NCBI GenBank assembly: GCA_027919835.1 | Contig: JANVFP010000009.1 | Coordinates: 1,302,001 to 1,366,000, forward strand | Reading direction: 5' to 3' | DNA: 64,000 bases | Origin: Lentinula raphanica | Lineage: Eukaryota > Basidiomycota > Agaricomycetes > Agaricales > Omphalotaceae | In this document: piece by piece, positions 26,333 through 45,312 of the stretch | Layout: each line of letters opens with the position of its first letter | Position numbering within the stretch: the stretch's first letter is position 1 | The notes under the pieces: generated by a model | Seen by the model: the letters and a program-made list of their open reading frames with translations, nothing else | The model's database searches: none | What the model was told of the DNA's origin: nothing | Made by a program: the position numbers and the translations under genes

Positions 26333-27840
26333 ATGACAGTTTTCCCTCTCATTGCCACAAACCCTACACCATCACACAATGCTAGTGCTCCTCGGTATGT
26401 TTCCTTGCTCTCACCTTGCAGTAACTTGTCCAGTGATGTCTTTCAGCATTGAAGGCAGTCGCGGTCCTACCGACGCTCCTTCTGCCCATGCACCAGCTAT
26501 TTCTTCGACGTCATTTAAGACCAATAAGATGCAAGATGAAACCATACAGTTCGTCCCCTTTGTCGAAAGTGACATCTATGCCCGAATTCTATCTCTTGGT
26601 AAACGAGGATATCCGTTGTGGACACCGAAATTAGAGAGCCCACAACTACCGGAAGTCTACAAGAAGAATGGAGCACACATTGGAGATGTCGGGAGAGTGA
26701 CTCGGTTCGGGGAATTCGACTATCTTTTCAATGTCTGTCACGGAGCAGATCATGAACTGAATCGGGGGAGAGTTCCTGAAGGTTTCGAACCTATTTCCAA
26801 CTTCGATGCTGATGGAATAATAGAAAACGAGTATCATATGGCCGACTCTGTTTTGAGCGATCCTATCCGAATCCACCAGCGCGACATACAGATTGAAAAC
26901 TCCTTTCAAGATTCGCCGAACCAGTGAGTGACATTGCAATAGTCCTTTGCTGAATCTGATCTTCATATAAGGCTTGAGGGAGTACCAAAAGAGTTCGGTG
27001 GAGGACAGGCTTATTCTTCGACGACATCCAATGGTGCTATCCTAATCTTACCGGAAGGAGGAACTAAATTTGACTGTCTACAACCTGAAGTATTCGCCAA
27101 ATACGCTGCCGAAAATGCAGCCTCGTGGTATTCCTATGCCACCGGAACGGGTCGTAGAATGCGAAATGGATCCTTGTACCTTGTCACTGGCTTCGATAAG
27201 GCAAGAGTCTGGGAAGTAGCCACGTTCCGCAACGCAAATCCTCAGAATGTTTCCTTGGAATTTGTACCAAAAGCTGCGAAGGGAAACTCGAGCTATCCGC
27301 ACTACTGGTTCCGTACAAGCCAATCTGCGGAAGCATCGAGTGGTGCAGATGATACATATGGGCAGCAGTCTGGAAGTGTTTTCTTGCGCGGTTATAAGAT
27401 CGCTATACGGCGAAGCTGGTTGCGCAAAATGGCTCCCAGCCTCAAGTATACCTACGACGGAATTGATTCCGATCGTCCACTCAATTTTTTGTTGAACTCA
27501 CCACCCTTGAGCTGGATCACACGACGGCTCTCTTCTTCGTCTTCAACCAACCATCGATCCAATCAAGTAGTGAAGTTGGAATTTGTACCCGATACTGAGG
27601 CTTGTCCTTACATTCCACAATATCGGTATGGAACTAATCATGCTGTATCACAGGTCTATCATCCATCGGACGCAATCGTCAACTGGCTTTTGAGGTACTC
27701 ACATGTAGACATTGCCCTCAGTCACGATGATGTTTGGTCACCACGGGCATTGGTCCTCAACGTTATATAGTGACTGATCAATATTGTCCATAGGATGATG
27801 AGGACATGCCAGACACTCCCGAGCTGATCCTTAGAGTTCG
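26333..27840 (+). pseudogene. F1, 5' part of gene split by the retrotransposon
   Basis: First member here of a paralogous family of unknown function (F1-F5). The short exon 1 (ATG at 26333) ends ASAPR before a GTATGT donor. Exon 2 carries RGYPLWTPK, HIGDVG and FDYLFNVCHGADHELN. Exon 3 carries GVPKEFGGGQAYSSTTS, RNGSLYLVTGFDKA and GQQSGSVFLRGYKIA. A later exon reads YHPSDAIVNWLL and DIALSHDDVW. After DDVW the usual exon end with its splice donor (AAVIRD in F3) is missing, so F1 may already have been damaged. The next exon breaks inside a codon at 27840, where the LTR begins. From memory, mushroom genomes hold many such proteins, but I know no function. Confidence 0.8.
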
Positions 27841-29533
27841 ATAATACGCCCATTTTGCGTGCAGGCATGCAATGGCCTAATTTTAACGATTAGAGCCTTG
27901 TAGAGTACTAAAGGACTGTAGTGAGCCCGAGCTGACAGTCAAACTTGTATCATGTTAATGCCAGGACGTCAGATCCAGACAGGAAAACACATCCTGACGA
28001 ATAATAAGAGTTCACACTCGAGTCCCTTGGTCGGGGAGTCCTTCAAGACAAAGCCACCTCTGATATGAGCTATCAAGGGATTATCAACTTAGTTTTCAAC
28101 GCCTAACGGCCAACTGAGTATGGTACTGCACCGAGACGAGCTTAGAACCAATAGATCTATTCGTATTACCAGTGGGGATGGATTATTCAAGGCCCAGACT
28201 CAACAGATCTATTCACTTAGATCGAGTTTCGGGATGGATCAGGTCGCAGGAATGTGACTAAACGGAGAAACAACCAAAGTGTATCATCCCAGTTACATGT
28301 GGACGTTTCCTAAATGGGAAATAGACGCCTGAGATGTACAGCTTTGACCAGGAGTGTTGCAAGGGTAGATCTTTCGACTTCACCATTGTTAAACCTCTGG
28401 ATCTATTCGATATATGCATATCGTTGGAAAGCTAGAAGCCAAACGAACCTATTGGGACAGGTTTCCCCCCTTTATATGTACTCCCATTCAGTTGGAGAGG
28501 CATACAACCGTTCACATAGCGGAATCAAATGAGGAAACGTTTGAGTTACCTGTGCAGGAGCTTATCCGTGCCCTTTAACCACCAGCATGTGGATGGACGC
28601 ACAGACCAGGTCCGGATTCGAAGGTCAGGCAACTAGATCTCGACGAAGGACCACCAGAAATGGACATTTTACTTGTTTTTATCCTTTTTACTCTCTGTTT
28701 CTCTGGTGTTTGTATCGTTTCTCGTCCTATCTTTCCTTATTTGTATCAGATCTCGGACTCCGTTCTCTCAAATCTATAGATCTATTCCATAAAATAGTAA
28801 ATTGGCTACAGATCTCTTCGTAGAAGTACTTAAGGACGTAGCCTACAAAAATATATGCAGGTTTTGTGCCCAGTTTCTCTGACTAGCTAACCTTTGCTCT
28901 CATACGTGAGGAGTAAAGGCTTTGTAAGCCGGGCGGTCTTCGAAAGTGGTTGTGAAATTCTCATCTCGTTAGGCCCGATATCTTGTCAGTTGATAAAGTC
29001 TCAGCTAGATTTGAATCGAAGGTAGACTCCTATCGTGGAGATACAGAGGGCTTGGTTCTCGGTTGTTCCAAGTGAGCGTTCAGAGTTTCGGTGGCTCTGT
29101 TCAAGCAGACGTGTGGTGATCGGTGATCCATACGAGCTGTGAAGGTTTCCTGTGATCGGTGATCAGTAGATCTTCAACCTGGTTCTGATAGTATTTGTGT
29201 GATCATAAAGTCTGATCTATACGAGTTCTTTCGTTCCTTGTAAACCCTTTGAGTGGATCACTCACCCCCTTCGAGTCCAGATCAAAAGATCTGTACTTCC
29301 GTGTCACTTCGCTCTGTTGACCTGTATTGCGGATCCAGTAGATCTTTTAAGACTACCAGTTCGTTCTAAGGTATAAGATCGTGCGGAATCTCTGACAACG
29401 CCCCACACCTCGCTTAAATACATTTGACAAACGACATAAGAAGTATATTGGTGATCAGTGTTCAGTGATAAAGTCACTAGGTCATTAGATCTATCCAACG
29501 AAGCATTAAATTGCACCCTTCATATCCTCGTTA
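27841..29533 (+). repeat. 5' LTR
   Basis: Starts ATAATACGCCC and ends CCTCGTTA, with the following TC ambiguous. It lacks the usual TG...CA ends; extended by one or two bases the ends form GATAA...TTATC. It contains eleven AGATCT hexamers. The 3' copy lacks two bases (near 29150 and 29207 of this copy) and has one substitution near 28858. Confidence 0.92.
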
Positions 29534-29535
29534 TC

Positions 29536-29554
29536 TGGAGCCCACCGCGAGGGG
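29536..29554 (+). other. Putative primer binding site
   Basis: TGGAGCCCACCGCGAGGGG starts two bases after the 5' LTR. Its complement ends in TCCA, as a tRNA 3' end with U at position 73 would. The tRNA is not identified. The tRNA-Arg in this window (A at 73) does not match. Confidence 0.5.
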
Positions 29555-29627
29555 TGGAATCTATATTTTGGAACGAACTCGAGAGATCTATCGATTTCTC
29601 AAACCATTGCCTTAGGTCGAACTTTGT

Positions 29628-31503
29628 TTGATCTTAAAAATAGCTCCAAGGGAGTCTCGGACGTCGAAGAACGCAGGTTCTTTAGATTACTTTGATCCAG
29701 AGGTGCAAGCCCCGGATAAAAGAAAACGTGTTACAAAGAAGCCTACGGTTCCTGTCTACGATCCGAAGAACCTCGGACGAGCAAAAGCAATCCAGATAAC
29801 GGGACTGCTGCTAGATCTGCTTCTGAAGTTCCAAGAACGAACAGATCTGGTGTAGTGCAAGGAAGCAGTAGACGTCAGGCAGTTACTGCTGAACCAGTCG
29901 ATTTGACTAGTTTGAATCCTACATTACCAAACTCTATTTCTTTTGACTTGCAACGTATCGTGTTTGGGAACAGAATACCAAATATAACGATGAGTACTAC
30001 ACAAAATGACCAAAATGCACAAGGTGCAAACGAGGCTCCAGTGGATATCCTCAAACTGTTGGGACCTCCTGCGTTGTCTCCTGAAGAGCAAGGGGAATAC
30101 AACAATGCGAAGTTCCCTGCCACTCATAAAACGGCTATGATCTTGGATCTAGCTGATCCGATCCAAATGCCTGAATGGATGAGGTTCTGTCTAACGACGT
30201 TCCAAGCCACGGGTGTGACCTCTGAGAAGGTGAAGATGCAAAGGATCTTTGGCTGGATGACCCTCCAGACGAAGCAAGCCTTAGAGCATCTCCCTGGAGC
30301 GGAGGAAGGAAAGGAGGATGCAGATCAATTCCTTCGAGCCATGATTGAGCGGTTCCCGTCTATCTTTGGCAAACCCCTGGGTTCCAAGAAAGCTATGCTG
30401 GAATTGGTTCAGAGGTTTCGACCATTGAGAGTCGAGGATGGATCTGAGCTGTTGATCTATTGCATGTTGTTCGAAGTCGAGGCCAATAAGTTGTTGAAAC
30501 CGCCTCCGGCGATTGGAAACCATGAATTGGTGTCGGTCTTTCTGTCAGCATTCGATGGAAACCTGAGAAAAGCTGTCTCGAAACGAGTTCAGCATCAGGT
30601 CCCCAACTCAAACTTGCGAAACGACGTACGGATGATCCATATACGTTCTCGGAATGGAAAAGTGCTGCAGAGGCTGTGGCTAGGCAGCCCCCTCTCGAAT
30701 CACTATACCAGACCTTTACTGGAACGGATGGAGCTGTCCTGAATGCAGAGACCAACTCTAGGGGAGGGATCTATATTCCGGTGGTTACCCCAGCAGCTGC
30801 TAAAGAGGAAACGCCAGATCTGACCCGTTTCTTTGCTACAGACACTAGATCTAGTGTTAAGCAGGAACAGGCAGAGGACCATGAACGTGCCTTTGTGGAA
30901 AATGTGGACAAATCGTCGTTGATGCTCAAAGAAATGGGGAATCTTAAGACGCGTTTTCAGGATGAGCTGACGTCGTTGCAGCAATTGCTCAATGATGTTA
31001 GGGCAGGAAAATCGGATGCTGGAATGCGACCCCAGCCCAGACCTGGCTTTTCTGGTAGTAGTAATCCCGGAACCAGTGGGCAGGGTCGAGGGATCCTTAA
31101 TGTCAATCCCACTCCAGGCCAAGGAATGCCAGATCGAACGTGTTTCTTGTGTCGAGGACCAGATCATATGATGAGTAACTGTCCTTTGTTCATGGAACTC
31201 CTTGGGAAAGGCTGGGTGATGCCGGAGTCTCAAGGATCCAAACGTCTTAAGCTGAAAGATGGATCTCCGTTACCAAATAACTTTGGTCCGGAAACTCGAT
31301 ACCAAAAGATCGTGAAATATGCTCAGAGCAAGAACTGGCCTGTTTTGGCGACGTTATACAATGATCTAATCCCCGATGAAGAGGATTATGCAGATCAGTT
31401 GGGGGATCCTACTTGGTTGTACCTTGCCAACGTAGTTGAATCTTCCCAGGGGAGATCTAGCAACAATGTTGCAACGGTGTACAGTAATGAGTCGGGAAAC
31501 TAG
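29628..31503 (+). pseudogene. gag: gag of the Gypsy element, frame-broken
   Basis: Structural nucleocapsid polyprotein. The first ATG with convincing downstream coding is at 29990 (MSTTQNDQNAQG), but coding-like sequence extends upstream to about 29628 without an ATG. The capsid-like region follows (EWMRFCLTTFQATG, AMIERFPSIFGKPLG). A CCHC zinc knuckle CFLCRGPDHMMSNC (C-x2-C-x4-H-x4-C) lies near 31141-31182. The frame slips by -1 near 29785, 30622 and 31492, each time at or beside a short run of one base (AAAA, GG, GGG). Whether these are real mutations or base-calling losses cannot be decided from the sequence. Confidence 0.8.
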
Positions 31504-33020
31504 AGGATCCAATGATTGAGTCGAGCAAGGGACGGAAAACAAGATCCCAGCTGAAGGACACGACTCATGAGGATGAACCTAAGCCCCGTTCATTGAAAAC
31601 TGTGCCTCCTACTAAGACAAACGTTTTGATGGAGTGCACATACCCGTAGATCGAAATCACCCAAATTTTAAAATGTTCCAATCAATCCAAATCTGCTCCT
31701 GAACCATCCAATTCGAAAGATCTGAACGGAAAATCGAACAGATCCAATCATTCATCAGGGGATACTTCACTAGGGAAGTCGAGATCTGTTAGTGTCGAAG
31801 AGAAATCAGATAAAGAGGATTCTGATTCTGAAGTAGAATTAGTTGAGGAAACTAGTGAGACCACTCGCAAAGTGCGTTTCAGGGAGCCCTCACCCTCTAG
31901 ATCTGACGAAACACATCGACCTTTTGATCATGTCCCACCCAGGGAAGTGTCACCCATACCTCGAAATCAACCAAAATCCAAACCGGAGAAGGTCACTGAA
32001 TCTAAAGGATCTTCGAAGGGACCCAAATTTCGGCTTCGGAATGAGTTATTCATTCCAGGCCTTGAAGAAGAATTAGCTGATCGGATTTCTCGTCAAATGA
32101 TCACATTGACGGCTGCTGAGGCATTCCAATTGTCAGGCAAAGTCAGGCAGATCATGATGAGGAAGATGAAAAACCGCCAAGTGCGTCCACAAGAACGAAT
32201 CAAGTCCTTTGTTAATGAGGCCCATGATGTTGAACCTAGTGTCGAGGAAATCCCGAGAACAGGGATGGAGATGCAACAGTTCATTGCCGTGGAAGATCTC
32301 AGTCTGTCAGAAGGCTTGATCTTTGAGAAAATACTCGAGGATCGAGATGGCATGAAGGCAGGGGATTATGTTCAGTTGGATCCGGTGGTAGCTTTTCTTC
32401 ATGATGTTGATGAAAATGATTCACGTCGTGATATGACTATAGTAGCCACTATGGGAAATGGCTTAAGATCTGTGTGGCCAGTTGTGAATAATCGAGATGA
32501 TCTAGACATCGAGAGTGTGTTAGACTCTGGATCTCAGATTGTTGCTATCGATATGTGTGTTGCCTAGGATTAGGACTAGGTTGGGATCCGAAAGTGACCA
32601 TCCAAATGCAGAATGTGCATGGAGGTCTGGCCCGTACCAAAGGACTGTCCAGGAACGTACCATTCCGATTTGGACCCATAACACTGTATCTACAATGCCA
32701 TGTGCAGGAAAAGGCCCCTTCGAAATTCTATTGGGTAGACCTTTCGATGTACTGACAGAAAGTGTCATCCATACGTTTGGATCTGGTGACCAAGAGTTAA
32801 CCATAACAGATCCGAACACTGGAAAGCAATACACCATAGGTACTAGTCCGAGAGGACAAAGTCCTAAAGCTCAGAAACGGCAGTTGGATAAGCAGAAGTA
32901 TGCTCAGACTCGGACAGAGACTCCAGATCCAAATCAGGAGACCAGTCCCGAAGAAGAGGAGAAAACTGCTGAACCAAATTTTTAGATAACCTCTGTGATC
33001 TGAGTAGCGATCAGGGAGAG
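31504..33020 (+). pseudogene. Linker and aspartic protease region of pol
   Basis: A Ser/Lys-rich linker leads to a retropepsin-like active site, VLDSGSQIVAIDM, at about 32517-32555. Downstream GPFEILLGRPFDVL fits the protease end. An in-frame TAG at 31647-31649 interrupts the linker while the same frame continues for 300 codons. The frame slips by -1 near 32562 (GTTGCC), 32712 (CCCC) and 32982 (TTTTT). Confidence 0.75.
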
Positions 33021-35690
33021 GTTGAAATCGCTGTGAGTGGGTATTGGGATCCTTTAGGTGAAGAAGTAGTCATTGAGTCGACCAAAGTGAAAGAAGGAGT
33101 GTTCCGAGACGAAGAATTGGCTGAACTATATGTTAATTATAGCCAACCCTCGTTTAGGGATTCACTTCCTGAAGTCGCTGAAACCATAGATCTATACCTA
33201 AACAAAGGTGTGGACCATCAACAAAATCGTGTGATCAATCCTTGGAAGGAAGGATTTCGAACTGATCCGGACGTGGAACAACTTGAACAGTCATTTTATC
33301 AGTCTATTAAAGCTAAGAGTCTGACGAGAGACGTTCATGGGTTGTCCCGGCCAAGTGATTACACTTCAGATCTGGACCATGTAAGTCCAGATCAACCGGA
33401 TAATTCCCAGTCCTACGACTTGAGGAGTGCCCGGGAACGAGTTCAATCGTGGGAACAAAAGAATGGAACATTTGAACAGCATATAGGCGCATATAGTGAC
33501 CCAATGTCATCATATTCAAATGTATCTGTCTTCGGTTCTCGAAAATATAAGCCTGTTGCGTTGAAAGTACGCCCGGTTAAGGCTGAACTTCCTGAGGAAT
33601 TTAGGGTTCGTCGTCATATCTTTGGAGATCCTTTGGAAGGATTGCCAGATCTGCCGACTCATCCACCTGAATTCACTCCGGGAGTCCGATACACGCAAGA
33701 GCGTAAGGAGATTATTGACAAGAACCATCCAGAAGGATTCTTAACAAATGAGGAACGAAAACTCGTTCATCATCTGATGAAGGTTCAGGAAATGGGTTTT
33801 GCCTGGGATCAATCCGAAGGTGGAACTTTCAGAGAGGATTTCTTCCCTCCAGTAAAGATTCCGGTTATACCTCACGAACCCTGGGTCGAGAAAAACATTC
33901 CCGTGCCTCCAGGAATCTTTCCAAGGTTTGTAAGATAATCAAGGATAAGATCCTTGCAGGAGTTTACGAACCATCGAGTGCAAGCTACAGATCTAAATGG
34001 TTCTGTGTGGTGAAAAAGGATGGAACGAGCCTAAGATTGGTGCACAGTCTGGAGCCTTTGAATAAGGTTACTATACGGCACTCCGGGGTTCCCCCAGCTA
34101 CTGCGGACATTGCTAGACACTTTGCAGGCAGAGCATGTGGAGGGATCTTGGATATCTTTGTGGGCTACATGAGAGACATATAGACGTTGGATCTAGGGAT
34201 CTCACCACTTTCCAAACTCCTTATGGACCACATCGTCTCGTCAAATTGCCTATGGGATGGACCAATCGGTACCAATATTCCATGACGATGTAACTTACTT
34301 GTTACGAGACGAAATTCCTGAATATACTATTCCTTACATTGATGATGTACCTGTGCGAGGACCCGAGAGTCGATATGAGTTACCAGGTGGTGGATATGAA
34401 ACCATCCCGGAAAACCCACAGATCCGTCGATTCGTATGGGAACATCTTCAAAACGTGAATCGGATCATCCAACGAATGAAGCATGCTGGAGGTACCTTTC
34501 AGGACCTAAAGCCTTCGTTTGTTGTGAGGAAACCACAGTGGTTGGACATCGTTGTGCCTATGAAGGACAGAAACCAGATGATAAGATCGCTACTACGGTC
34601 CTAACTTGGCCTAAATGCGAAACTCGAACACATGTGAGAGCTTTTCTGGGGACTGTTGGCCAGCTTCGAATGTTCATTCACAACTATTCCAAGAAAGCTG
34701 CCCCCTTGACTAAATTGACGGCAAATGTACCGTTTGAGTGGTCTGAGGAGCAGGATCTTGCTATGGAACTACTAAAGGAAGGAGTGCGAAATGCACCAGC
34801 CCTTAGAGTCATTGTTTATGATTGGGAAACACATCTATCAGTCGATAGCTCCTGGATGGGAACAGGATTTTACATTTATCAAGTAGATCCTAACGACCCT
34901 GAAAAGATCTATTACAATTACTTTGGATCTATTCCCTACGTGGAACGGGAAGCCCGTTTTTCACAGTCTAAACGTGAACTTTATGGTCTGAAACTTGCTT
35001 TGGAGTCCACCCATTATCTTCTTTATGGATGCCGACAACTGATAGTGGAAACTGATGCGAGCTACATACAGGGAATGCTTGAAAACCCCAGTAGTGGCCC
35101 AAATGCAACCATTAATCGTTGGATTGAGGCAATCCGTAAATTCCATTTCGATTTGGTACATGTCAAAGGTGTGACACATGGACCTGATGGCTTATCTCGA
35201 AGACCACCTGGTGGTTGGACAACTCCTCGCGGAAAGTCGACCAGTGAAGATGATCTGGACGAGGATGACTCCAACAACATCAGGTTTCTAAAAGCAGATG
35301 ATGCCGACGATCCATTTCCCTTTGATTCGTTTAAAGATCATATAGATCCAAGGCATGGTTATCTCCTAGGAATCTATTGCCCAGATTTCGAGGAAGATCT
35401 AGAACTTGCCAGAGAAGAAGATCTTGAGCATAAACTACGAAAGGACCATCTGCTTATGCATGGGATGCAACCAGTTTCTCAGTATCTGCAATATACTACG
35501 ATTCCTGACAATGCAGTCTGGGGACCAGATCAATCATATCCGGATTCCCACAGATCTGATGGAGGAAATCGTTTGGACAAGCAGTTGCCAGAGATCTTGG
35601 AGTGGCTGAAAAACCCTGATGCAGAATGTTTCGGGAAATTGGACAAGAAACAACGGTTAGAATGGATAGGAAAGTAATTCCCTTCTCCAT
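33021..35690 (+). pseudogene. pol: Reverse transcriptase and RNase H of pol
   Basis: RT motifs in order are SKWFCVVKKDG, LRLVHSLEPLNKV, SRDLTTFQTPYGPHRL, LPMGW and the catalytic YIDD box (34338-34349), then VVGHRC and VRAFLGTVGQLRMF. The RNase H fold follows with VDSSWMGTGFYIYQ and ETDASYIQGML, then LVHVKGVTHGPDGLSRRP, the usual end of fungal gypsy RNase H. The frame slips by -1 near 33921, 34168, 34252, 34500 and 35655. Each slip sits at or next to a one-base run, except 34168. Confidence 0.85.
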
Positions 35691-37135
35691 TGATCCGAAG
35701 GTCGATTGTACCATAGGAAGTTATCGTCAGATCAGCCTCGTTTAGTCGTGGATCCTGATCGACGAATGGCTCTTCTGAACAGTGCACACGATGCCCTTGG
35801 TCACAAAGGTGTCTTTGCGACGAAGGACTTCTTGGAAAAGAGGTTTTGGTGGCCAGATCTGGACAAAGACGTGGAGTGGTATGTTAAATCGTGCCAAGCC
35901 TGTCAGGATCGACAGAGGGCTCTCATTAGAATCCCTCCAACGGTTACTTATACCCCTTCCCTGTTTCAGAAGATACATATTGACACCATGTTCATGACTC
36001 CATCCAGTAATGGGTGTAAGTACATAGTGCATGGTCGAGATTCACTTTCATCCTGGTCCGAGGCGAGAGCCTTAAGAGTGGAAAATGCCAGATCTATAGC
36101 TGAATGGTTCTTTGATGACATTATCTGTCGATGGGGATGTCCTGAGGAAGTTGTTTCGGATAATGCACCCCAAATGAAGCTTATGCTGAAATGGTTGGAA
36201 CAAAAGTATGGGATCCGAGGAATTAAGATTTCCCCGTATAACTCTCAAGCTAATGGAAGATTGAGCGTGCTCATTATGATCTGAGGCAGGCCTTAGCAAA
36301 GACTTGTGCCGGAGATCTGAGCAAATGGTTCTACTTCCTGAAGCCGATGTTATGGGCAGATCGAGTCACTCCTAGGAGGGGTCTCGGATGCTCTCCCTAT
36401 TTTGTTGTAACTGGTGCAGAACCGTTACTCCCTTTTGATATCGTCGAATCTACCTATTTGGTCAATCCACCAAATCGAATCCTCTCTCGGGAAGAGTTGC
36501 TGGGTTATCGTGCCCAGGCCCTTTCCAAACACCGTTCCTTCATTGAGAACATGAGATCCAGGATTGATGCTAATAAGCGTCGAGATCTTAGGATCTTCGA
36601 AGACAAGTTCCGATATACTATCAAGGACTGGGATTTCAAACCAGGGACCTTGGTACAGATCAGGAACACCACCATCGAGAAGAATTTGGATCGAAAAATG
36701 TATAGTCGTTACCGTGGACCTATGGTTGTGATCAGACGAACACGAGGAGGATCTTATATCATTGCTGAAATGGATGGTACCGTACTGAAAGACAAAGTCG
36801 GTGCATTCAGAGTAATGCCTCATCATGCTCGTTTCGAACCAATAGATCTGCCCCAGAACATCCATGACCTGATAGATCTGAGTCCAGAACAACTGGAAGC
36901 TATGGTCGATGATGACGAGGATACCCCTGATAATGTTGAGGATCTAGTATTCGGAGCAATCCCTAAGATCAACATATCTGAGGATCCTGAAGTCACATTC
37001 GATACTTCAGCTGAAAAAGATACAGATCCTCCGGATCCGAAGGCTGCAGAGTCCGGTTCTAATGATGAAGCACCTGAGGATGACAATTCTGAGGCAGGCC
37101 CACGTCGTAGTCGAAGGATCTCCTCATCAAACTGA
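35691..37135 (+). pseudogene. Integrase with GPY/F-type end
   Basis: The zinc-binding HHCC domain reads HDALGHKGVFATKDFL with C-x2-C at SCQACQ. The catalytic core has HIDTMFM (first Asp) and VVSDNAPQ (second Asp). The Glu (IERAHYD) lies in the next frame because of a -1 slip near 36258 at GGAAGATT. A second slip is near 35717. The C-terminal part contains YRGPMVVIRRTRGGSYI, the GPY/F module of Ty3/Gypsy integrases, and an acidic tail; no chromodomain is recognised. It ends at 37135. Confidence 0.85.
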
Positions 37136-37153
37136 GTTAGACCAACAGATCTA

Positions 37154-37168
37154 TTTAGTTTGGGGGAG
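37154..37168 (+). other. Polypurine-tract-like motif 1
   Basis: TTTAGTTTGGGGGAG lies 18 bp after the pol stop. It is identical to the 15 bases directly before the 3' LTR and is where a minimal element's 3' LTR would start. Confidence 0.7.
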
Positions 37169-37343
37169 TCCGGTCATTGATCTTTCGAAATCTCTATCTC
37201 AACATGCTCGAGGAAGTTGGTCATCGACTGAATTACCTCAAAAACTACCTAATACGTTACTTGACTGCATATCAGGTATAAAAATAGGTACCAGGACAAC
37301 GGGAACGAATGGATCTGGTGTTTCAACTACTTCAGACGTCTAC

Positions 37344-39322
37344 CTAAGGCGCGGAATGTGGAGGAAGCGAAGGATCTAGGCGTGCTAGCTGTTCTCTATC
37401 ACCTTGTGGATCACCCCTGGGTGGCATCATAAGGGGACGAGTGTAGGGTGTGTAGGAAGGAACGACAACCACTTCCTCGCGAGGATTGCTGTCGTCGTCG
37501 ACGTTCAGGGGCTGTTTCATACGGAAAGCCTTCCAGGCGTTGTCGATAATGGCCTGACTTGCCAACCCACGTCGAGCGTAAAACCTAGCTTTGATGGAAC
37601 AGTCGAAAAGCTGATTCTGATGGAAGTTAACCAAGGCATTGAACTGTGCCTCGGTATAGTTGCTGTACTCAGCGGCGTGGCTATGAGTGATATCTTGAAG
37701 GAGACGGACGAGGTCCCAGTTTTCGGAATCTCCTGGGTCGCCTGTGAAGATGATTAGCTCGGATACCACGTCCTAGAGACAGTTCAAACGCAAGACAACA
37801 TGCTAAAGCAATAGATCTAGTGATCCTTGCTGCTCTGTGATAAATAATAGAGCGAAAAGAAGAGAAGATCTGTTGGAAATGACTCGAGGTACTTACAAGT
37901 ATCGGCCAGATCTAGGTAGACCTTGGTCCTCTTGGTCCGTTCCTCTCCGGTCGCCAGGGGCTGAACGATAGTCTCAGGTCCAGCAGTGGTTGAGTAAGGC
38001 TCAGGGTTCACTGAAGTCTCAGCGGATCCTGCTGCCCCCACGTCTTGGTCCTGTCGCTTTCGTTTTCCCTTGCCCTTGGAAGCCTTCGTAGTCTCTTCCT
38101 CAGCATTCGTCCCTTGGCCTTAGCCTTGGGTTTGGGTTCCTCTTCCATCTAAAGAATCGTCAGATCTATTCGTTTGAGTAGATCTAAAGGTACTTACGAT
38201 GATATCCGGGTCAGCCATTGGCTCAGGAGTCTCCTCGACGACCTTAGACTTCTTTTTGGACTTGGACTTAGACTTAGCCTTGGGAGACGCCTCTTCTTCA
38301 CCTGCAACGTCCTCCATCTGAAGATCTTCATCAGAAACCGTTAGATCTATCAAGTGGAACGACGTACAGGGCTATCTTGGTCAGCTACTTTGACGGGAGT
38401 GCCCTTTCGATACAACTTAGCACGACGTTCGGCTCGATAAGCAAGAATGGCGTAGGCTGCAATGCCATCACAGCCTGGACTTGCCTGTTGACGACGAAGG
38501 AAGGCAGTAGTTCCCTTGGGACGGGCCTTACGTGCAGCAGCCTCGTCTTCAGCTTCGGCGGCGGCGAGATCTGCTTCCTAACTCGATGGATCAATACTTC
38601 GGATCGACCCGACGAACAGATCTACTCACGATTTCTTCCATGAACTTCTGTTCAGCGTCAATGGGCTCGACTGAAGCACGTTCCACGGTCTTTTCTCTGG
38701 CCTTGGACGATTCCTTGCCTTTGGTCTTTGAAAATTGATCAGATCTATCGAAGGGACGAAGTTTTTCGAAGCAATACTTACTCCTGGAGTCGAGTTTTTG
38801 ACTTCCTTTGCAGCGGCTTCGGCCTTCTGCATTTTGGCTCGTGTGGCGGAACGACGGATCTTGACGAGCTCGTCGAGGAACAGTTCCATCCGGGAGTCTT
38901 GTCCACCCTCATTCTTGACGTTGGGGTAGAGTCTGCCGGCCTCCTCTGCGATCTCAGAGAAGGCCATGATGCCGATCAAGGCTTCACTCAAGGCCTCGTA
39001 CTGTTGCATGTACGATGTGTTGAGACTGGCAGCCTCCTTCGACACCTTAAGGGACTGGAAAAGTCGTCAGAAGACTGATAATGAACAGATCTAGTCATGA
39101 AATACATACAATGTGTTCATAGGCAGACTTTACATCAGCCATTATCGCTTTTCTCGTCGAAGTCTGAAGTTTGATGGATCCTTGTTGATTGATAGCAGCA
39201 CTGAAGCCTAGGGTACGATCTTGACATAGTACTTTGGCCCAGTGTGCTGCATCGTCAGCCCAGTCCTCAAGCTCGGACTCCAAACGAAGGGGAATGTTGG
39301 AAAATTCGTGGTTGGGCGCCAT
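37344..39322 (-). CDS. Antisense accessory gene AS2 in the retrotransposon
   Basis: No known family recognised. Exons as read: 39322-39110, 39054-38782, 38725-38630, 38577-38368, 38317-38198, 38148-37897 and 37772-37344. They are separated by introns of 49-56 nt plus one of 124 nt, all GT-AG. The first five joins keep frame. The N-terminal half is helical (MAPNHEFSNIPLRLESELED), and a Lys/Glu-rich, likely coiled-coil and nuclear middle follows (KSKSKSKKKSK). The last exon contains DVVSELIIFTGDPGDSENWD and looks globular. Exon 6 needs one extra base near 38112 (GGG run) to stay open, and its join to exon 7 is not resolved in frame. All six introns contain AGATCT. Either a broken or a mis-called gene. 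Confidence 0.6.
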
Positions 39323-40137
39323 ATTTTTGTTTGGGAGTTGGATCTACTCGGATCAGTGCTGTTTTATACGAAAAACTTTCCTTGACTGAGTCAGCAGGGA
39401 CTGCTGAGCTTTTAGTTTGGGGGAGGGGACACTGTGTTTCGAAAATTTTCAAAATTTAAAATTTTACGAAGTCAGTGATCTAAGTGAAACAAGCATGTGG
39501 GTAACATGTATAGCACTAGATCTGAGGCCGACGTAGCTCACATTAGTTGCCCAAAGGATTAAGAGACCTTAGGGCAGTGACCACCAACATTTTTATAAGC
39601 GAAAGGCACGAAAGAACGAATAGATCTATTCGTGTTTTCCGCATATATTCACAGATCCAGGGAACCTGTAACAAGGGATACTCTGGATCTGTTCATTTCT
39701 CTTACAAAGAGGCTCAATAGGGTCAACGGAATTGTATTTCAAAGATTTCTATTAGAGCTTACTTTATTTTACACTACTGAGGACAGATCTATTCATGATC
39801 GTTAACTTAGTGGACTTATGAAGGATTTCACACGAGGTTCAAGATCAAATTGGCACTAAGGCCATGCATTGGAGCAGACTACTAGGGTACTACCTAAGTG
39901 TCTGTAAGAATGTACCAAGAAATATTGAAAAGACCTCAAAGGAATACTACATAGGCTACGAGTAAAGAGTTGATGAGATTTAGTCCGTATGTAGTAAAAC
40001 TAGGGGTCTGTAGACGAGTCGGTGCGATTGAGATATGTACAGATCATTTTGTGCTGGTCCAAGAAGCCGCATCTCCAAACAGATCCTACCGGAGAAGGAT
40101 CACCCCGCAACCCATGAGCGTCGAAACCAAGTATGAT
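39323..40137. other. AS2 upstream region between the antisense genes
   Basis: No gene. It is the likely promoter of AS2 and the 3' flank of AS1. It holds a polypurine-tract copy and at least three AGATCT hexamers (near 39515, 39618 and 39784), two of them within AGATCTATTC. Confidence 0.5.
39411..39425 (+). other. Polypurine-tract-like motif 2
   Basis: TTTAGTTTGGGGGAG, identical to the copies at 37154 and 43272, about 90 bp upstream of the AS2 start. It separates the AS2 module from the AS1 module. Confidence 0.7.
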
Positions 40138-42812
40138 TCAAGGTTTCGCAGGATCAGGAGCGACGGAGGGGGCCTTCTTGTCATCCTTCGACTTCTTCTC
40201 CTCCTTCGACTTGTCGTCCTCGATGGGTCCGCTCTGAGCCGTCATGTGCGAGTACTCACGAACGACAGGGGGAAGGGAAGGCTCTTTGGCTGCGATTTCG
40301 TTTTCGTACAGCATGTCAGTGGAAGGGGGTGCCGGAACTTCAACTTCATGAGCCCGTATGAAGGCCTGGAACTTGGCAATACTTTCGGAATCCTTGAGGT
40401 ACGCGGACAGGTTGCACGACGAGTTCCAGCCAAAGAAGGTCGCAAACCAACAGGCGGTATCATAGTCGAGTTCCTGATTAGGATGCTCCTCGGCCCAGGC
40501 AGATAAGACAACGTTAGCGTCGAGACCAGCACGCTTCAGTTTGTTGGCCTGGCGAGCCAGGATAGTCAGGGAGTTTTGGAGCAGGCTCTCCGTGTTTTCC
40601 ATGACTCGGAAGTGGTTGTCCAAGGCTTCCTGGAACTGCTCCACGGCGTCGGAATACCCTGAAAGAAGAAAGCATCGTTAGCAAAAACGCGAAGTGGTAC
40701 AGATCTGTAGATACTGACCACCAGGAAGAGTGCGGACGGCTTCAGGGATGATGTCCAGAAGATCGGATTGAAGCTCCATGTGCAACGCACTGGAACAGGT
40801 GCGATGAGACTGTTCACACCCAAAGCAGGGACCTCCGAGTTGAGCCCCGGAACGACAGTTGAGCCCCCGGATGAGGCAGGATACGCAATCTGTGGTAGGC
40901 GCAACGTCGGGATCGACGGGATGAGACGACGGAGCCAGACCCCGTGAAGTCAAATGTGCAAAACGGGCGAGGTTGGAAAGTGAAAAGGAAACGTTCCCTG
41001 TGGTCAGGAAACTCCCTATTGCTTCCAACTCCGGGGAAACCGACCATTTCGGCTCACGAAGGATCTGCATGTCGTTGCGGCGTTTGGGAGTGCTGTGGGA
41101 GGCTCGTTTATATAAGACAGAAAATGCGAGTTTTGGCTTGTAGTCGGGATTGGCTAGGTAGGACACAAGGTGCTCGACATCGGTATCATTATCAGCCAAC
41201 ATTCCTGCGGCCTCAGCTCCAGAAGGCTCTGGTGGAGCCACCTCTTCGTATTCTAGCTCGTCCTCTTCTACCGTAGGAGGAGGAGTTACTGCACGAGTCT
41301 TGGCTTCGGTCTTCCTGGTTCTCTGTTTCTTGGCAGCAGGCGCAGAGGGAGGCTGGAGAAATGGCTCAGGCACCACAAAACCAGGAGACGAAGCAGTAAA
41401 CCTACCTCGGGCTGGTCATTGTCAGGACGTTCTCTCTTAACCTTGATCACGACGGCGGGTTTGGGAGAAGCGCGGGACTTGCCCTTGCCTTTACCTACCG
41501 GTGGACCAATCTTAGCAGGGGAAGATCGAGTGATCCGAGAGCGATGGGTAGCCAAGTCCTTTCCTGTGAAGAGGAAGTCAGTACGACTAAAGAGCGGCTT
41601 GGACATACTTACCAGTTCTGGTCCGGACACTGGAGACCTTGAAAACGTCGCCATCCTCCGCTTCTTCGGAAGAGGCCTCGGTCTCCCCCAGGTCAACCTC
41701 GTCGCCGTGAAAGGAAGACCCTACGGGCGATCCAAGCGGAGATGCTAAACCCCCGTCACTAAGGATGGGAGAGGCAACTCCTTGGTGACTAGTGGAAGCC
41801 TGAGGCGGAGATGGGCGTGGACCCGAAGACACGTAGCCGGGCTCTGGCAACAGGATCTGATTGGTGTAGGGATCTCGAATGGCTTGTTGGGATGTCCCGG
41901 TGCTAGCCACCTGAACAATGAGGTGCCCTTCATTGGACAAATAGTCGAATGGGATGGGAATAGCAAGGGACGCTACGGTTAACCCTCCGGGTTTGAAGGA
42001 CCTCTGGAGGCGGAAGTTGATGCATTAGAGACGAAAGGGAATCAGGGACGAAAAAGCAACGTACCTTGATTTCTGCTCGAAGAGATGCACTGACTCCGAG
42101 GCCGGCGTTCTTCTTCTCATCGTAAACATACTTGCTGAACTCGGCGGCATTCAAGTACCGATCGCAGTAGTCGCTGAATAAACACATAAAGCGAACGGCG
42201 AATAGTGGGCATGAGCGCGACCGATGCCAGAACCGACGATAATGTTTCTATACAATGTCAGTCGAGTATGGAAGGCAAGGGAGCAGGCACGCTTACCAAG
42301 GCATTCTGGATAGAAGGATTCTTGAGCATCTCCAACAGGCGACTCTGGGTCTTTGTGCGAGACTTGTTGGCAGACATGATATCAGCCACGGCCTCCTGCA
42401 CGATCCTAAGTCCCCGGTAGAGAAAAGACGCGTCAACCCGACACAATGGGCCGCTGGCAAAAGGCTTGTAGGTTTGGACCAGTTGACTGGGGTAGAAGCT
42501 GCTAGCCACCATGCCGTTGTAGTCAGAGGGAATGTGCAAAGGGAAGTCGACGTCGTCAAGATTCGTATACGCTGGCAACTCGAACGCCGAACCCAAGGAG
42601 TTACGAGTCTTAGGCCAAAGGCGTTGAAGGGCTTCAGCTTCCTCAACGGAGGAGGGCAAGAAAAGGATGGGTTTCTTCATCGACAATAAGCTATCCCGCG
42701 CGCGTACCGCGTCATGGAACGTGAAGTCGGATACCGGTGAAGAAAACAGTAAACGCTGTGAAGATCTATATTGGGTTTTCCCGGTGGATGCGTCCTTGCC
42801 TTTGCTCGACAT
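40138..42812 (-). CDS. Antisense accessory gene AS1, Zn2Cys6-like motif
   Basis: Six exons (42812-42297, 42247-42065, 42003-41613, 41563-41406, 41352-40719, 40658-40138) join in frame across five GT-AG introns of 49-61 nt. They give exactly 800 codons plus stop. The N-terminus is MSSKGKDASTGKTQYRSS. The middle is Pro/Ser-rich and basic (KIGPPVGKGKGKSRA), then acidic. Residues about 572-602 hold C-x2-C-x6-C-x9-C-x2-C-x6-C (DCVSCLIRGLNC, then GPCFGCEQSHRTC). This spacing fits fungal Zn2Cys6 binuclear clusters, although there they usually lie near the N-terminus with more basic residues. The C-terminal part is helical with a Lys/Asp tail. Unlike gag-pol it has no frame break. A DNA-binding or regulatory role is inference; another possibility is a captured host gene. 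Confidence 0.75.
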
Positions 42813-43286
42813 TGTGTTGTAGATTGGAGACAGTGGGCACACGCAAAAGCGGGGAAGTGAAAGTAAGAAAGGAAGCGGACTTAGAGAAAATTTTCGAAGT
42901 CCGGCAGCCTTTTATCCACGGTTCTTAAGAACTTCCCAGGACGTAATAAGCCACTGGGAAAATTCTAAGAATAGTAGGATAGAGCAATACTTACAAAGGT
43001 CAAAGGAATGAACTTTGTGAAGTTGCAGGAATTGTGAATTGATCTCTTGATAATCACACTCGGAAATTAGGCGCTTCTATCGAGTTAGCCGCGGGTTTAA
43101 TTATCATCAGTTGATCTCGAGGCAACCGAACAGATCTATAGCGTTAATGAGTGGGAATACCATTGGGATATCGAGGAGATCAATCCAAAAGCTCGGATCA
43201 GTTGCAGTACCACACTCCCAAGGGAGGTACGAGCCTGTCTACCCAACCAGATGACCGGGGACGGTCAGATCTTTAGTTTGGGGGAG
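42813..43286. other. AS1 upstream region and polypurine tract
   Basis: Likely promoter of AS1 (minus). It ends with the polypurine tract TTTAGTTTGGGGGAG at 43272-43286, directly before the 3' LTR. AGATCT occurs near 43132 and 43266. Confidence 0.6.
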
Positions 43287-44977
43287 ATAATACGCCCATT
43301 TTGCGTGCAGGCATGCAATGGCCTAATTTTAACGATTAGAGCCTTGTAGAGTACTAAAGGACTGTAGTGAGCCCGAGCTGACAGTCAAACTTGTATCATG
43401 TTAATGCCAGGACGTCAGATCCAGACAGGAAAACACATCCTGACGAATAATAAGAGTTCACACTCGAGTCCCTTGGTCGGGGAGTCCTTCAAGACAAAGC
43501 CACCTCTGATATGAGCTATCAAGGGATTATCAACTTAGTTTTCAACGCCTAACGGCCAACTGAGTATGGTACTGCACCGAGACGAGCTTAGAACCAATAG
43601 ATCTATTCGTATTACCAGTGGGGATGGATTATTCAAGGCCCAGACTCAACAGATCTATTCACTTAGATCGAGTTTCGGGATGGATCAGGTCGCAGGAATG
43701 TGACTAAACGGAGAAACAACCAAAGTGTATCATCCCAGTTACATGTGGACGTTTCCTAAATGGGAAATAGACGCCTGAGATGTACAGCTTTGACCAGGAG
43801 TGTTGCAAGGGTAGATCTTTCGACTTCACCATTGTTAAACCTCTGGATCTATTCGATATATGCATATCGTTGGAAAGCTAGAAGCCAAACGAACCTATTG
43901 GGACAGGTTTCCCCCCTTTATATGTACTCCCATTCAGTTGGAGAGGCATACAACCGTTCACATAGCGGAATCAAATGAGGAAACGTTTGAGTTACCTGTG
44001 CAGGAGCTTATCCGTGCCCTTTAACCACCAGCATGTGGATGGACGCACAGACCAGGTCCGGATTCGAAGGTCAGGCAACTAGATCTCGACGAAGGACCAC
44101 CAGAAATGGACATTTTACTTGTTTTTATCCTTTTTACTCTCTGTTTCTCTGGTGTTTGTATCGTTTCTCGTCCTATCTTTCCTTATTTGTATCAGATCTC
44201 GGACTCCGTTCTCTCAAATCTATAGATCTATTCCATAAAATAGTAAATTGGCTACAGATCTCTTCGTAGAAGTACTTAAGGACGTAGCCTACAAAAATAT
44301 ATTCAGGTTTTGTGCCCAGTTTCTCTGACTAGCTAACCTTTGCTCTCATACGTGAGGAGTAAAGGCTTTGTAAGCCGGGCGGTCTTCGAAAGTGGTTGTG
44401 AAATTCTCATCTCGTTAGGCCCGATATCTTGTCAGTTGATAAAGTCTCAGCTAGATTTGAATCGAAGGTAGACTCCTATCGTGGAGATACAGAGGGCTTG
44501 GTTCTCGGTTGTTCCAAGTGAGCGTTCAGAGTTTCGGTGGCTCTGTTCAAGCAGACGTGTGGTGATCGGTGATCCATACGAGCTGTGAAGGTTTCTGTGA
44601 TCGGTGATCAGTAGATCTTCAACCTGGTTCTGATAGTATTTGTGTGTCATAAAGTCTGATCTATACGAGTTCTTTCGTTCCTTGTAAACCCTTTGAGTGG
44701 ATCACTCACCCCCTTCGAGTCCAGATCAAAAGATCTGTACTTCCGTGTCACTTCGCTCTGTTGACCTGTATTGCGGATCCAGTAGATCTTTTAAGACTAC
44801 CAGTTCGTTCTAAGGTATAAGATCGTGCGGAATCTCTGACAACGCCCCACACCTCGCTTAAATACATTTGACAAACGACATAAGAAGTATATTGGTGATC
44901 AGTGTTCAGTGATAAAGTCACTAGGTCATTAGATCTATCCAACGAAGCATTAAATTGCACCCTTCATATCCTCGTTA
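43287..44977 (+). repeat. 3' LTR
   Basis: Nearly identical to the 5' LTR: starts ATAATACGCCC right after the polypurine tract and ends CTCGTTA. By my reading it differs by one substitution and two missing bases over 1.69 kb. Confidence 0.92.
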
Positions 44978-45312
44978 TCGAGCTCACAAGCAATGTATAC
45001 AATACGGTACTACGTCCAGAGGTATGTAAACCGATCTGTATCTGGATGACAAGAAGTTCAGTTCGAAGGTTTGATTCAGGCCACAAATGGGCGTGCTTGC
45101 AGGAAGTTCCATGTCAAGTGTCTTCCGAGTCATTGCATGGGACACTCAAAGGCACAAATCTCCTCAGTAAGTTCCAGCAGACAAGGACTCAAAGCAAGAC
45201 TAGGTCTTTTGTAGAGGTCATGAAAGAGTCAAGTTCAACCTACATACCAATTGTGTTCCCTGAACTTACACTTCGTTTCTCTAGTTGCATCACTTGTGGC
45301 ACTCATAAGTAG
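44978..45312 (+). pseudogene. F1, 3' part beyond the retrotransposon
   Basis: The exon broken at 27840 resumes as AGCTCACAAGCAATG, coding AHKQCIQYGTTSRG, matching F3's ANKHCIQYGTTSRG. It is followed by a GTATGT donor at 45022. The next exon starts at 45080 with GHKWACLQEV, the same block as GHKWVC in F3 and F4. The final exon end is unclear; a Cys-rich SCITCGTHK lies at 45284-45312. Confidence 0.75.

Follow-up and report, generated by a model that had tools for sequence, protein, structure and literature searches.

A Ty3/gypsy long terminal repeat (LTR) retrotransposon in a 64,000-nucleotide stretch of the Lentinula raphanica genome (C9:1302001-1366000, hereafter the window) carries two spliced genes, AS1 and AS2, on the strand opposite to gag and pol. 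Comparison of element copies within this one genome (49.06 Mb in 75 contigs), the scope of all DNA-level results below, indicates that only AS1 occurs in numerous, anciently diverged and mosaic lineages, which are uncoupled from an otherwise homogeneous backbone. AS1 was the only hypervariable part that we found in the element. A sequence-only reading of the same DNA had claimed two spliced opposite-strand genes between the pol stop at 37135 and the 3' LTR, and this was borne out. Three findings go beyond that reading: AS1 is hypervariable, another gypsy family has the same gene pair, and the window AS2 departs from an intact gene model.

Divergence of AS1 within the element

Besides the window copy, 20 element copies were retrieved. 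Seventeen copies, including the window, entered an all-pairs comparison of AS1 and its flanks; L015, L016, L023, and L027 were left out because of missing anchors or length. Flanks were 96 to 99% identical in 136/136 pairs, whereas identity in the AS1 core ranged from 49 to 100% and was 80% or less in 129 of the 136. Mean p-distance was 0.371 in AS1 versus 0.0186 in the AS2 block, and the two sets of distances were uncorrelated (Mantel r = 0.016; p = 0.36; 16 copies, L017 being left out for an insertion in its AS2). At 90% identity, the 17 copies fell into 13 AS1 allele groups. Mean identity had returned to 0.96 by approximately 70 bp 5' of the AS1 start codon and by approximately 500 bp 3' of the stop. 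In the presumed leader of AS1, mean pairwise identity was 0.89 to 1.0 over 42860-43000, and identity to the window was 96 to 97% over 43000-43250 (12 copies).

Other comparisons gave the same picture. When window positions 37000-44990 were aligned to the 20 copies by blastn, identity was approximately 94 to 99% on both sides of AS1. In 12 of these copies (among them L015, for which only the left side matched), AS1 itself was unmatched or was matched only by patches of 131 to 163 bp at 70 to 74%; six of the remaining eight carried a window-type AS1 and two were cut short. In sliding windows across 12 copies, AS2 and the LTR were 95 to 100% identical to the window and window-type AS1 52 to 100%, while type-B AS1 was at 44 to 64%, about the level given by unalignable DNA. 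A gag segment (window 30000-31200) had 25 other full-length matches, at 98 to 99% identity (40 of 86 candidates scored), and a pol segment (window 34400-35600) was 98 to 100% identical in 18 other near-full-length matches and 74 to 76% identical in a sister family (40 of 72 candidates scored). AS2 was thus conserved like the other genes of the element, but AS1 was not. Among the best 23 matches of an AS1 search, 19 adjoined AS2 of the main family, that of the window element, and 4 ran off contig ends; none lay beside a foreign backbone.

The sister gypsy family, whose pol is approximately 73% identical over the aligned block, carries AS2 and AS1 at the same place. Sister AS1 was 28 to 35% identical to window AS1, and sister AS2 was approximately 31 to 35% identical over the first exon, which ends at about the same residue (matches break near residues 72 to 76). 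Both genes are therefore far more diverged between the families than pol. Divergence was again confined to AS1 among six sister copies compared in 300-bp windows: AS1 interiors were 44 to 77% identical, flanks 91 to 100% (omitting a nonhomologous stretch of L034), and the AS1 3' end and beyond 56 to 100%. In L034, the first 1.5 kb in element orientation had no homology with the remaining sister copies. Each of the best ten sister-type matches of the AS1 search had an adjoining sister-type AS2. The AS1/AS2 pair appears to predate the split of the two families.

We estimated the ratio of nonsynonymous to synonymous divergence (dN/dS) from 8 AS1 and 7 AS2 models, excluding disrupted copies on which the gene predictor gave false splice paths (L018, L027, and others). 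For diverged AS1 alleles of the same type, dN/dS was 0.07 to 0.13 at dS 0.75 to 1.8. Between types it was 0.16 to 0.27 in the 5 of 12 pairs that were computable, dS being saturated in the other 7. Near-identical AS1 pairs, with few changes, gave 0.08 to 0.35, and AS2 gave 0.07 to 0.33 at dS 0.03 to 0.08 (21 pairs from 7 copies). The sequence-only reading had proposed the AS1 frame in other copies and dN/dS as a check on the genes; the frame was conserved and the ratios lay well below 1, in agreement with its claim. As judged by sequence, both AS1 and AS2 are spliced, protein-coding genes under purifying selection. Fourfold-degenerate sites had no excess of transitions (55 to 83 transitions versus 75 to 105 transversions in four within-type AS1 pairs).

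AS1 alleles were also mosaic. The window allele and that of L021 were 99 to 100% identical up to approximately 40.6 kb, then 96 and 86%, and then 65 to 73%; the allele of L024 resembled L011 across most of AS1 and L010 near the 5' end. Old alleles between recently coalescing, recombining flanks, the pattern expected of a balanced polymorphism, were thus found here among copies in one genome rather than among individuals.

Searches with AS1 retrieved 10 and 35 proteins, all from L. raphanica, with no homologue outside the species among the approximately 7,990 candidates scored per search. Each was compared with its closest counterpart among 22 alleles modelled from this genome: the 24 of the 35 that bear locus tags of other strains were 51 to 96% identical, and the 11 that bear the tag of this genome were 42 to 100% identical. 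Both ranges are lower bounds, since the 22 alleles, which include models of five interrupted copies, are only part of the AS1 copies in the genome. Three AS1 lineages were met in the deposited proteins of another strain at 95.7 to 96.0% (P0002, P0009, and P0011).

Gene structure and element architecture

The AS1 model joins six exons (516, 183, 391, 158, 634, and 521 nt) across five introns of 49, 61, 49, 53, and 60 nt (Table 1). The 800 codons and five introns proposed earlier were confirmed both by this GT-AG join and by a deposited 800-amino-acid protein, P0001 (C8R42DRAFT_718390), which is identical to the model of copy L019; the window AS1 differs from that of L019 by a single nonsynonymous change, and hence from P0001 by one residue. 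Deposited protein P0003 is likewise identical to the model of L013. In terms of sequence, these identities are an independent agreement on splicing, though the deposited models may themselves be computed. Among the 17 copies whose AS1 region is complete, AS1 was open over its full length in 11 (the window, L009, L010, L011, L013, L014, L017, L019, L020, L021, and L026); eight of these were predicted de novo, and in L010, L014, and L026 the exon boundaries were transferred from a relative. It was interrupted in the other six (L012, L018, L022, L024, L025, and L028). Because the frame is open in so many copies even though amino acid identity between alleles can be as low as 43%, the structure is beyond chance. 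All five introns were present in 17/17 complete copies, 8 by de novo prediction and 9 with GT/AG at or near transferred positions. This supports the proposal that minus-strand introns can survive retrotransposition, the window copy with its near-identical LTRs included; such retention would be expected provided that introns of the minus strand stay unspliced in sense RNA. Matches to AS1 and AS2 occur in many more copies than those modelled. At C22:879642-879973 we observed broken AS1-like fragments (61% amino acid identity) with no AS2 match adjoining.

For AS2, a model of eight exons fit 7 of the 21 copies modelled (L009, L013, L014, L019, L023, L025, and L026). Some of its splice sites are uncertain, since a stricter intron penalty yielded variants of 541 to 543 amino acids in five of the seven. 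The window AS2 followed the model up to and including exon 5 and then deviated (introns 5 and 7 predicted at 114 and 43 nt versus 50 and 58 nt), and this copy is probably damaged. Sequence evidence across copies indicates that AS2 is real as a gene. Two proteins matched it, both from L. raphanica, and no relative was found outside the species among the approximately 7,990 candidates scored. In L017, a main-family copy, approximately 3.2 kb is inserted in AS2, between one match that ends at 38363 and another that starts at 38355.

The predicted AS1 protein contains a motif of six cysteines (Table 1), all invariant across an alignment of five proteins that represent three deep AS1 types. The spacing agrees with the Zn2Cys6 consensus, CX2CX6CX5-12CX2CX6-8C. 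In an alignment of 19 deposited AS1 proteins, only two of the six cysteines were listed as nearly invariant, which means that the cluster is partly missing or misaligned in some deposited models. Basic runs in the AS1 sequence suggest nuclear entry, and structure prediction gave a helical N-terminal domain (approximately residues 100 to 280) with fair to good confidence.

Table 1. Coordinates of the element and its antisense genes in the window
Feature	Position	Strand	Description
5' LTR	27840-29535	+	Ends GATAAT...GTTATC
gag-side open reading frames	29855-31503	+	Second frame with a weak zinc knuckle, below cutoff
pol region	31872-37135	+	RNase H and integrase domains; last pol-side frame stops at 37135
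AS2, antisense gene	39322-37344	-	Model of 8 exons and 530 amino acids in 7/21 copies
AS1, antisense gene	42812-40138	-	6 exons, 5 GT-AG introns, 800 amino acids; between pol and 3' LTR
AS1 exons	42812-42297, 42247-42065, 42003-41613, 41563-41406, 41352-40719, 40658-40138	-	Gene model
Six-cysteine motif	40795-40887	-	C-x2-C-x6-C-x9-C-x2-C-x6-C; AS1 residues 572-602
Hypervariable block	40040-42860		AS1 from about 45 bp 5' of the ATG through the 3' untranslated region
Presumed AS1 promoter/leader	42861-43285	-	Conserved; putative promoter role
AGATCT-rich backbone	27840-40100, with 42850-43286		54 sites versus 7.5 expected
3' LTR	43286-44979	+	Pairs with 5' LTR

Over an alignment of 1,696 columns, the two LTRs of the window copy show 1 mismatch and 2 gap columns; this near identity marks the insertion as recent. 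They form a direct pair that brackets gag and pol. Their termini depart from the usual TG...CA, and a candidate 6-bp target-site duplication with one mismatch flanks them (GAGTTC at 27834-27839 and GAGCTC at 44980-44985). A domain search placed RT_RNaseH_2 and RT_RNaseH within 34436-35677 and Integrase_H2C2 (the integrase zinc-binding domain) within 35706-36284, that is, RNase H upstream of integrase as in Ty3/gypsy pol; rve scored under its own cutoff in the window pol. On the RNase H and integrase zinc-binding domains found in its sequence, the window element is classed as Ty3/gypsy. The window pol is split among several open reading frames in different frames. At least contigs C1, C2, C5, C6, C10, C12, C21, C25, and C37 start or end inside these elements, and the family therefore limits the assembly.

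Short motifs were unusually dense in the backbone. Relative to counts expected from first-order resampling, the AGATCT excess (Table 1) extended over the LTR, gag-pol, and AS2 (27840-40100 and 42850-44979), while AS1 held 2 sites (0.8 expected) and the rest of the window 16 (20.1 expected). The main backbone was also rich in AGATCC (37 versus 11.7 expected) and AGATCA (28 versus 14.7), and one sister backbone in AGATCA (51 versus 10.8), AGATCT (25 versus 5.4), and CGGAAA (54 versus 9.0). CGGAAA was not raised in the main family (8 versus 6.7), and neither AS1 nor the remainder of the window showed a clear excess of any of these motifs. The two families thus have the AGATC core in common, which leaves CGGAAA as the one clearly family-specific motif. 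In pol, 4 of 15 AGATCT sites recurred in the sister family, and 0 of 14 CGGAAA sites recurred in the window copy, compared to 18% for any 6-mer. Motif sites were dispersed, coding sequence included, and did not form tandem repeats; within the family they were not significantly more constrained than other positions (suggestive, P = 0.18 to 0.20; 12 and 11 sites, 15 copies). Different AS1 types sit in one and the same backbone. The AGATC-type motif is therefore independent of AS1 type and could instead pertain to AS2 or to a host factor.

Explanations for the old AS1 lineages

Taken as a whole, the explanation that we favor stands at about an even chance on the sequence evidence: AS1 would act as a regulator in the nucleus, frequency-dependent selection would preserve its old lineages, and template switching would exchange them. 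Under this proposal, a regulatory protein of the zinc-cluster type would be produced from an internal antisense promoter, its lineages would be maintained by negative frequency-dependent (balancing) selection within the element population, and template switching between copackaged genomic RNAs would homogenize the backbone. Balancing selection is favored because old, mosaic alleles under purifying selection sit in a young, homogeneous element, whereas neutral alleles should coalesce with their flanks. The 20-fold contrast in divergence would mark AS1 as a target of long-term selection for diversity, and the sister family has the same confinement. In the weakest step, AS1 would restrain or license elements in an allele-matched manner, a self-encoded control of copy number that copies with a rare AS1 could escape. 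More tentatively, AS1 could be a polymorphic recognition locus, in which ancient alleles, kept by frequency-dependent selection and free to recombine onto a common backbone, would determine what copies are held back.

Several points weigh against the favored explanation. The allele-matched step is without direct support, and any matched target could only be the protein or the RNA of AS1, because nothing but AS1 varies in the part compared. In no 100-codon window of AS1 did nonsynonymous diversity (pN) come near synonymous diversity (pS) in five pairs, and there is thus no sign of ongoing diversifying selection on AS1. The Pfam Zn_clus model (PF00172) scored 7.6 to 11.3 bits in three AS1 segments, with a gathering cutoff of 21, so we do not file AS1 as a Zn2Cys6 member; a fold search gave no match at E ≤ 0.001. 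The divergence of AS1 may have been neutral from the time when exchange across the gene became rare. Finally, the evidence consists of sequence, from one genome at the DNA level, and copies are not individuals.

Selection for diversity may not be needed at all: a recent backbone burst could have acquired old AS1 lineages by recombination, or divergence could sustain itself once beyond the reach of homologous exchange. The almost identical LTR pair of the window and the low diversity of the backbone are consistent with this, and the AS1 fragment without AS2 at C22:879.6-880.0 kb leaves some room for AS1 sequence outside main-family backbones. We nevertheless regard the possibility as unlikely, given that none of the best 23 AS1 matches lay beside a foreign backbone, that the sister family repeats the confinement of divergence to AS1, and that exchange inside AS1 still happens; in the absence of selection, moreover, AS1 would be expected to have coalesced as recently as its flanks. 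The sharp edge of divergence near the AS1 start would suit local hypermutation, or targeted mutagenesis, in place of old alleles. This seems highly improbable in view of dN/dS of 0.07 to 0.13, fourfold sites without a transition excess, and discrete mosaic lineages, three of them matched at 95.7 to 96.0% in another strain.

Two further explanations involve silencing. AS1 and/or AS2 could bind the dense element motifs and open chromatin, with AS1 diversifying against host silencing factors; VANC proteins, according to the portions of the account consulted (PMC5735166), bind motifs that are frequent in the elements they come from. The zinc-cluster-like motif and basic runs of AS1 fit such a role, as does the density outside AS1 of AGATC-type motifs in both families and of CGGAAA in the sister family. 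We consider it unlikely, because AS1 types at 43 to 44% amino acid identity share one AGATCT backbone, so that variation does not follow the motif, because the AGATC core is not specific to either family, and because the sites are not significantly constrained, are partly coding, and lie outside tandem repeats, unlike VANC targets. Alternatively, antisense AS1 mRNA could seed small RNAs, from which nucleotide-divergent copies would escape with their protein conserved. Divergence does include introns, synonymous sites, and the 3' flank at low dN/dS, and double-stranded RNA from antisense transcripts has been proposed for plant elements in the part of the literature seen (PMC7264820). Yet AS2, which is antisense too, is homogeneous within the family, as are the gag and pol stretches searched, and we judge this route quite improbable. 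With regard to the favored regulator under balancing selection, AS1 function is made testable: the 13 allele groups are natural reagents, and allele-specific effects are predicted.

Relation to known systems

The function of antisense accessory genes in LTR elements is open in the parts of two accounts available to us (PMC7264820 and PMC11963269). The same sources describe plant gypsy elements with antisense open reading frames between pol and the 3' LTR, namely Retand with TRP28, Grande with gene23, and RIRE2. As there described, these resemble the present element in the position and orientation of the genes, their conservation in most copies, and suspected nuclear or DNA-binding products. 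The present element differs in having two spliced genes, a fungal host, and an AS1 that has diverged far more than the rest of the element. It also differs in TRP28 (PF04195), the antisense domain of the Retand lineage, which had no match in 19 AS1 proteins or in the AS2 relative P0036. The sequence-only reading correctly noted that antisense genes are known in plant gypsy elements; they are not confined to plants, since Boty of Botrytis/Sclerotinia carries the antisense gene brtn (Zhao et al. 2011, as cited in the portions seen of PMC7264820 and PMC8365987). Boty, likened here by description only, is likewise an LTR element from fungi in which an accessory gene runs antisense; allelic hypervariability goes unmentioned in what we saw of the citing accounts. 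In the literature searched, which covered few subscription papers, we found no report of allelic hypervariability in an antisense gene or of these L. raphanica elements.

Fungal Zn2Cys6 clusters (PF00172) share their cysteine spacing with AS1, which differs by its subcutoff score and by the late position of the motif in the protein. VANDAL is a DNA transposon. As far as the consulted text of PMC5735166 goes, the VANC/VANDAL anti-silencing system of Arabidopsis resembles the present case in its element-dense short motifs and accessory protein; the DNA-binding motif here is only putative. VANC motifs sit in noncoding tandem repeats of a plant, whereas those here are dispersed, partly coding, and in a fungus. 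Ty1 copy-number control, together with Ty1/Ty1' gag replacement, offers another likeness in the part of the report consulted (PMC7055915): control is self-encoded with subfamily specificity, and recombination swaps one gene in a related backbone, control being putative in our case. The Ty1 factor derives from gag, of which two versions are described; here it would be a separate antisense gene with many. As a recognition locus, AS1 would be comparable to phage immunity regions and fungal mating-type alleles. If so, a transposon population would keep ancient polymorphism as immune or incompatibility loci do.

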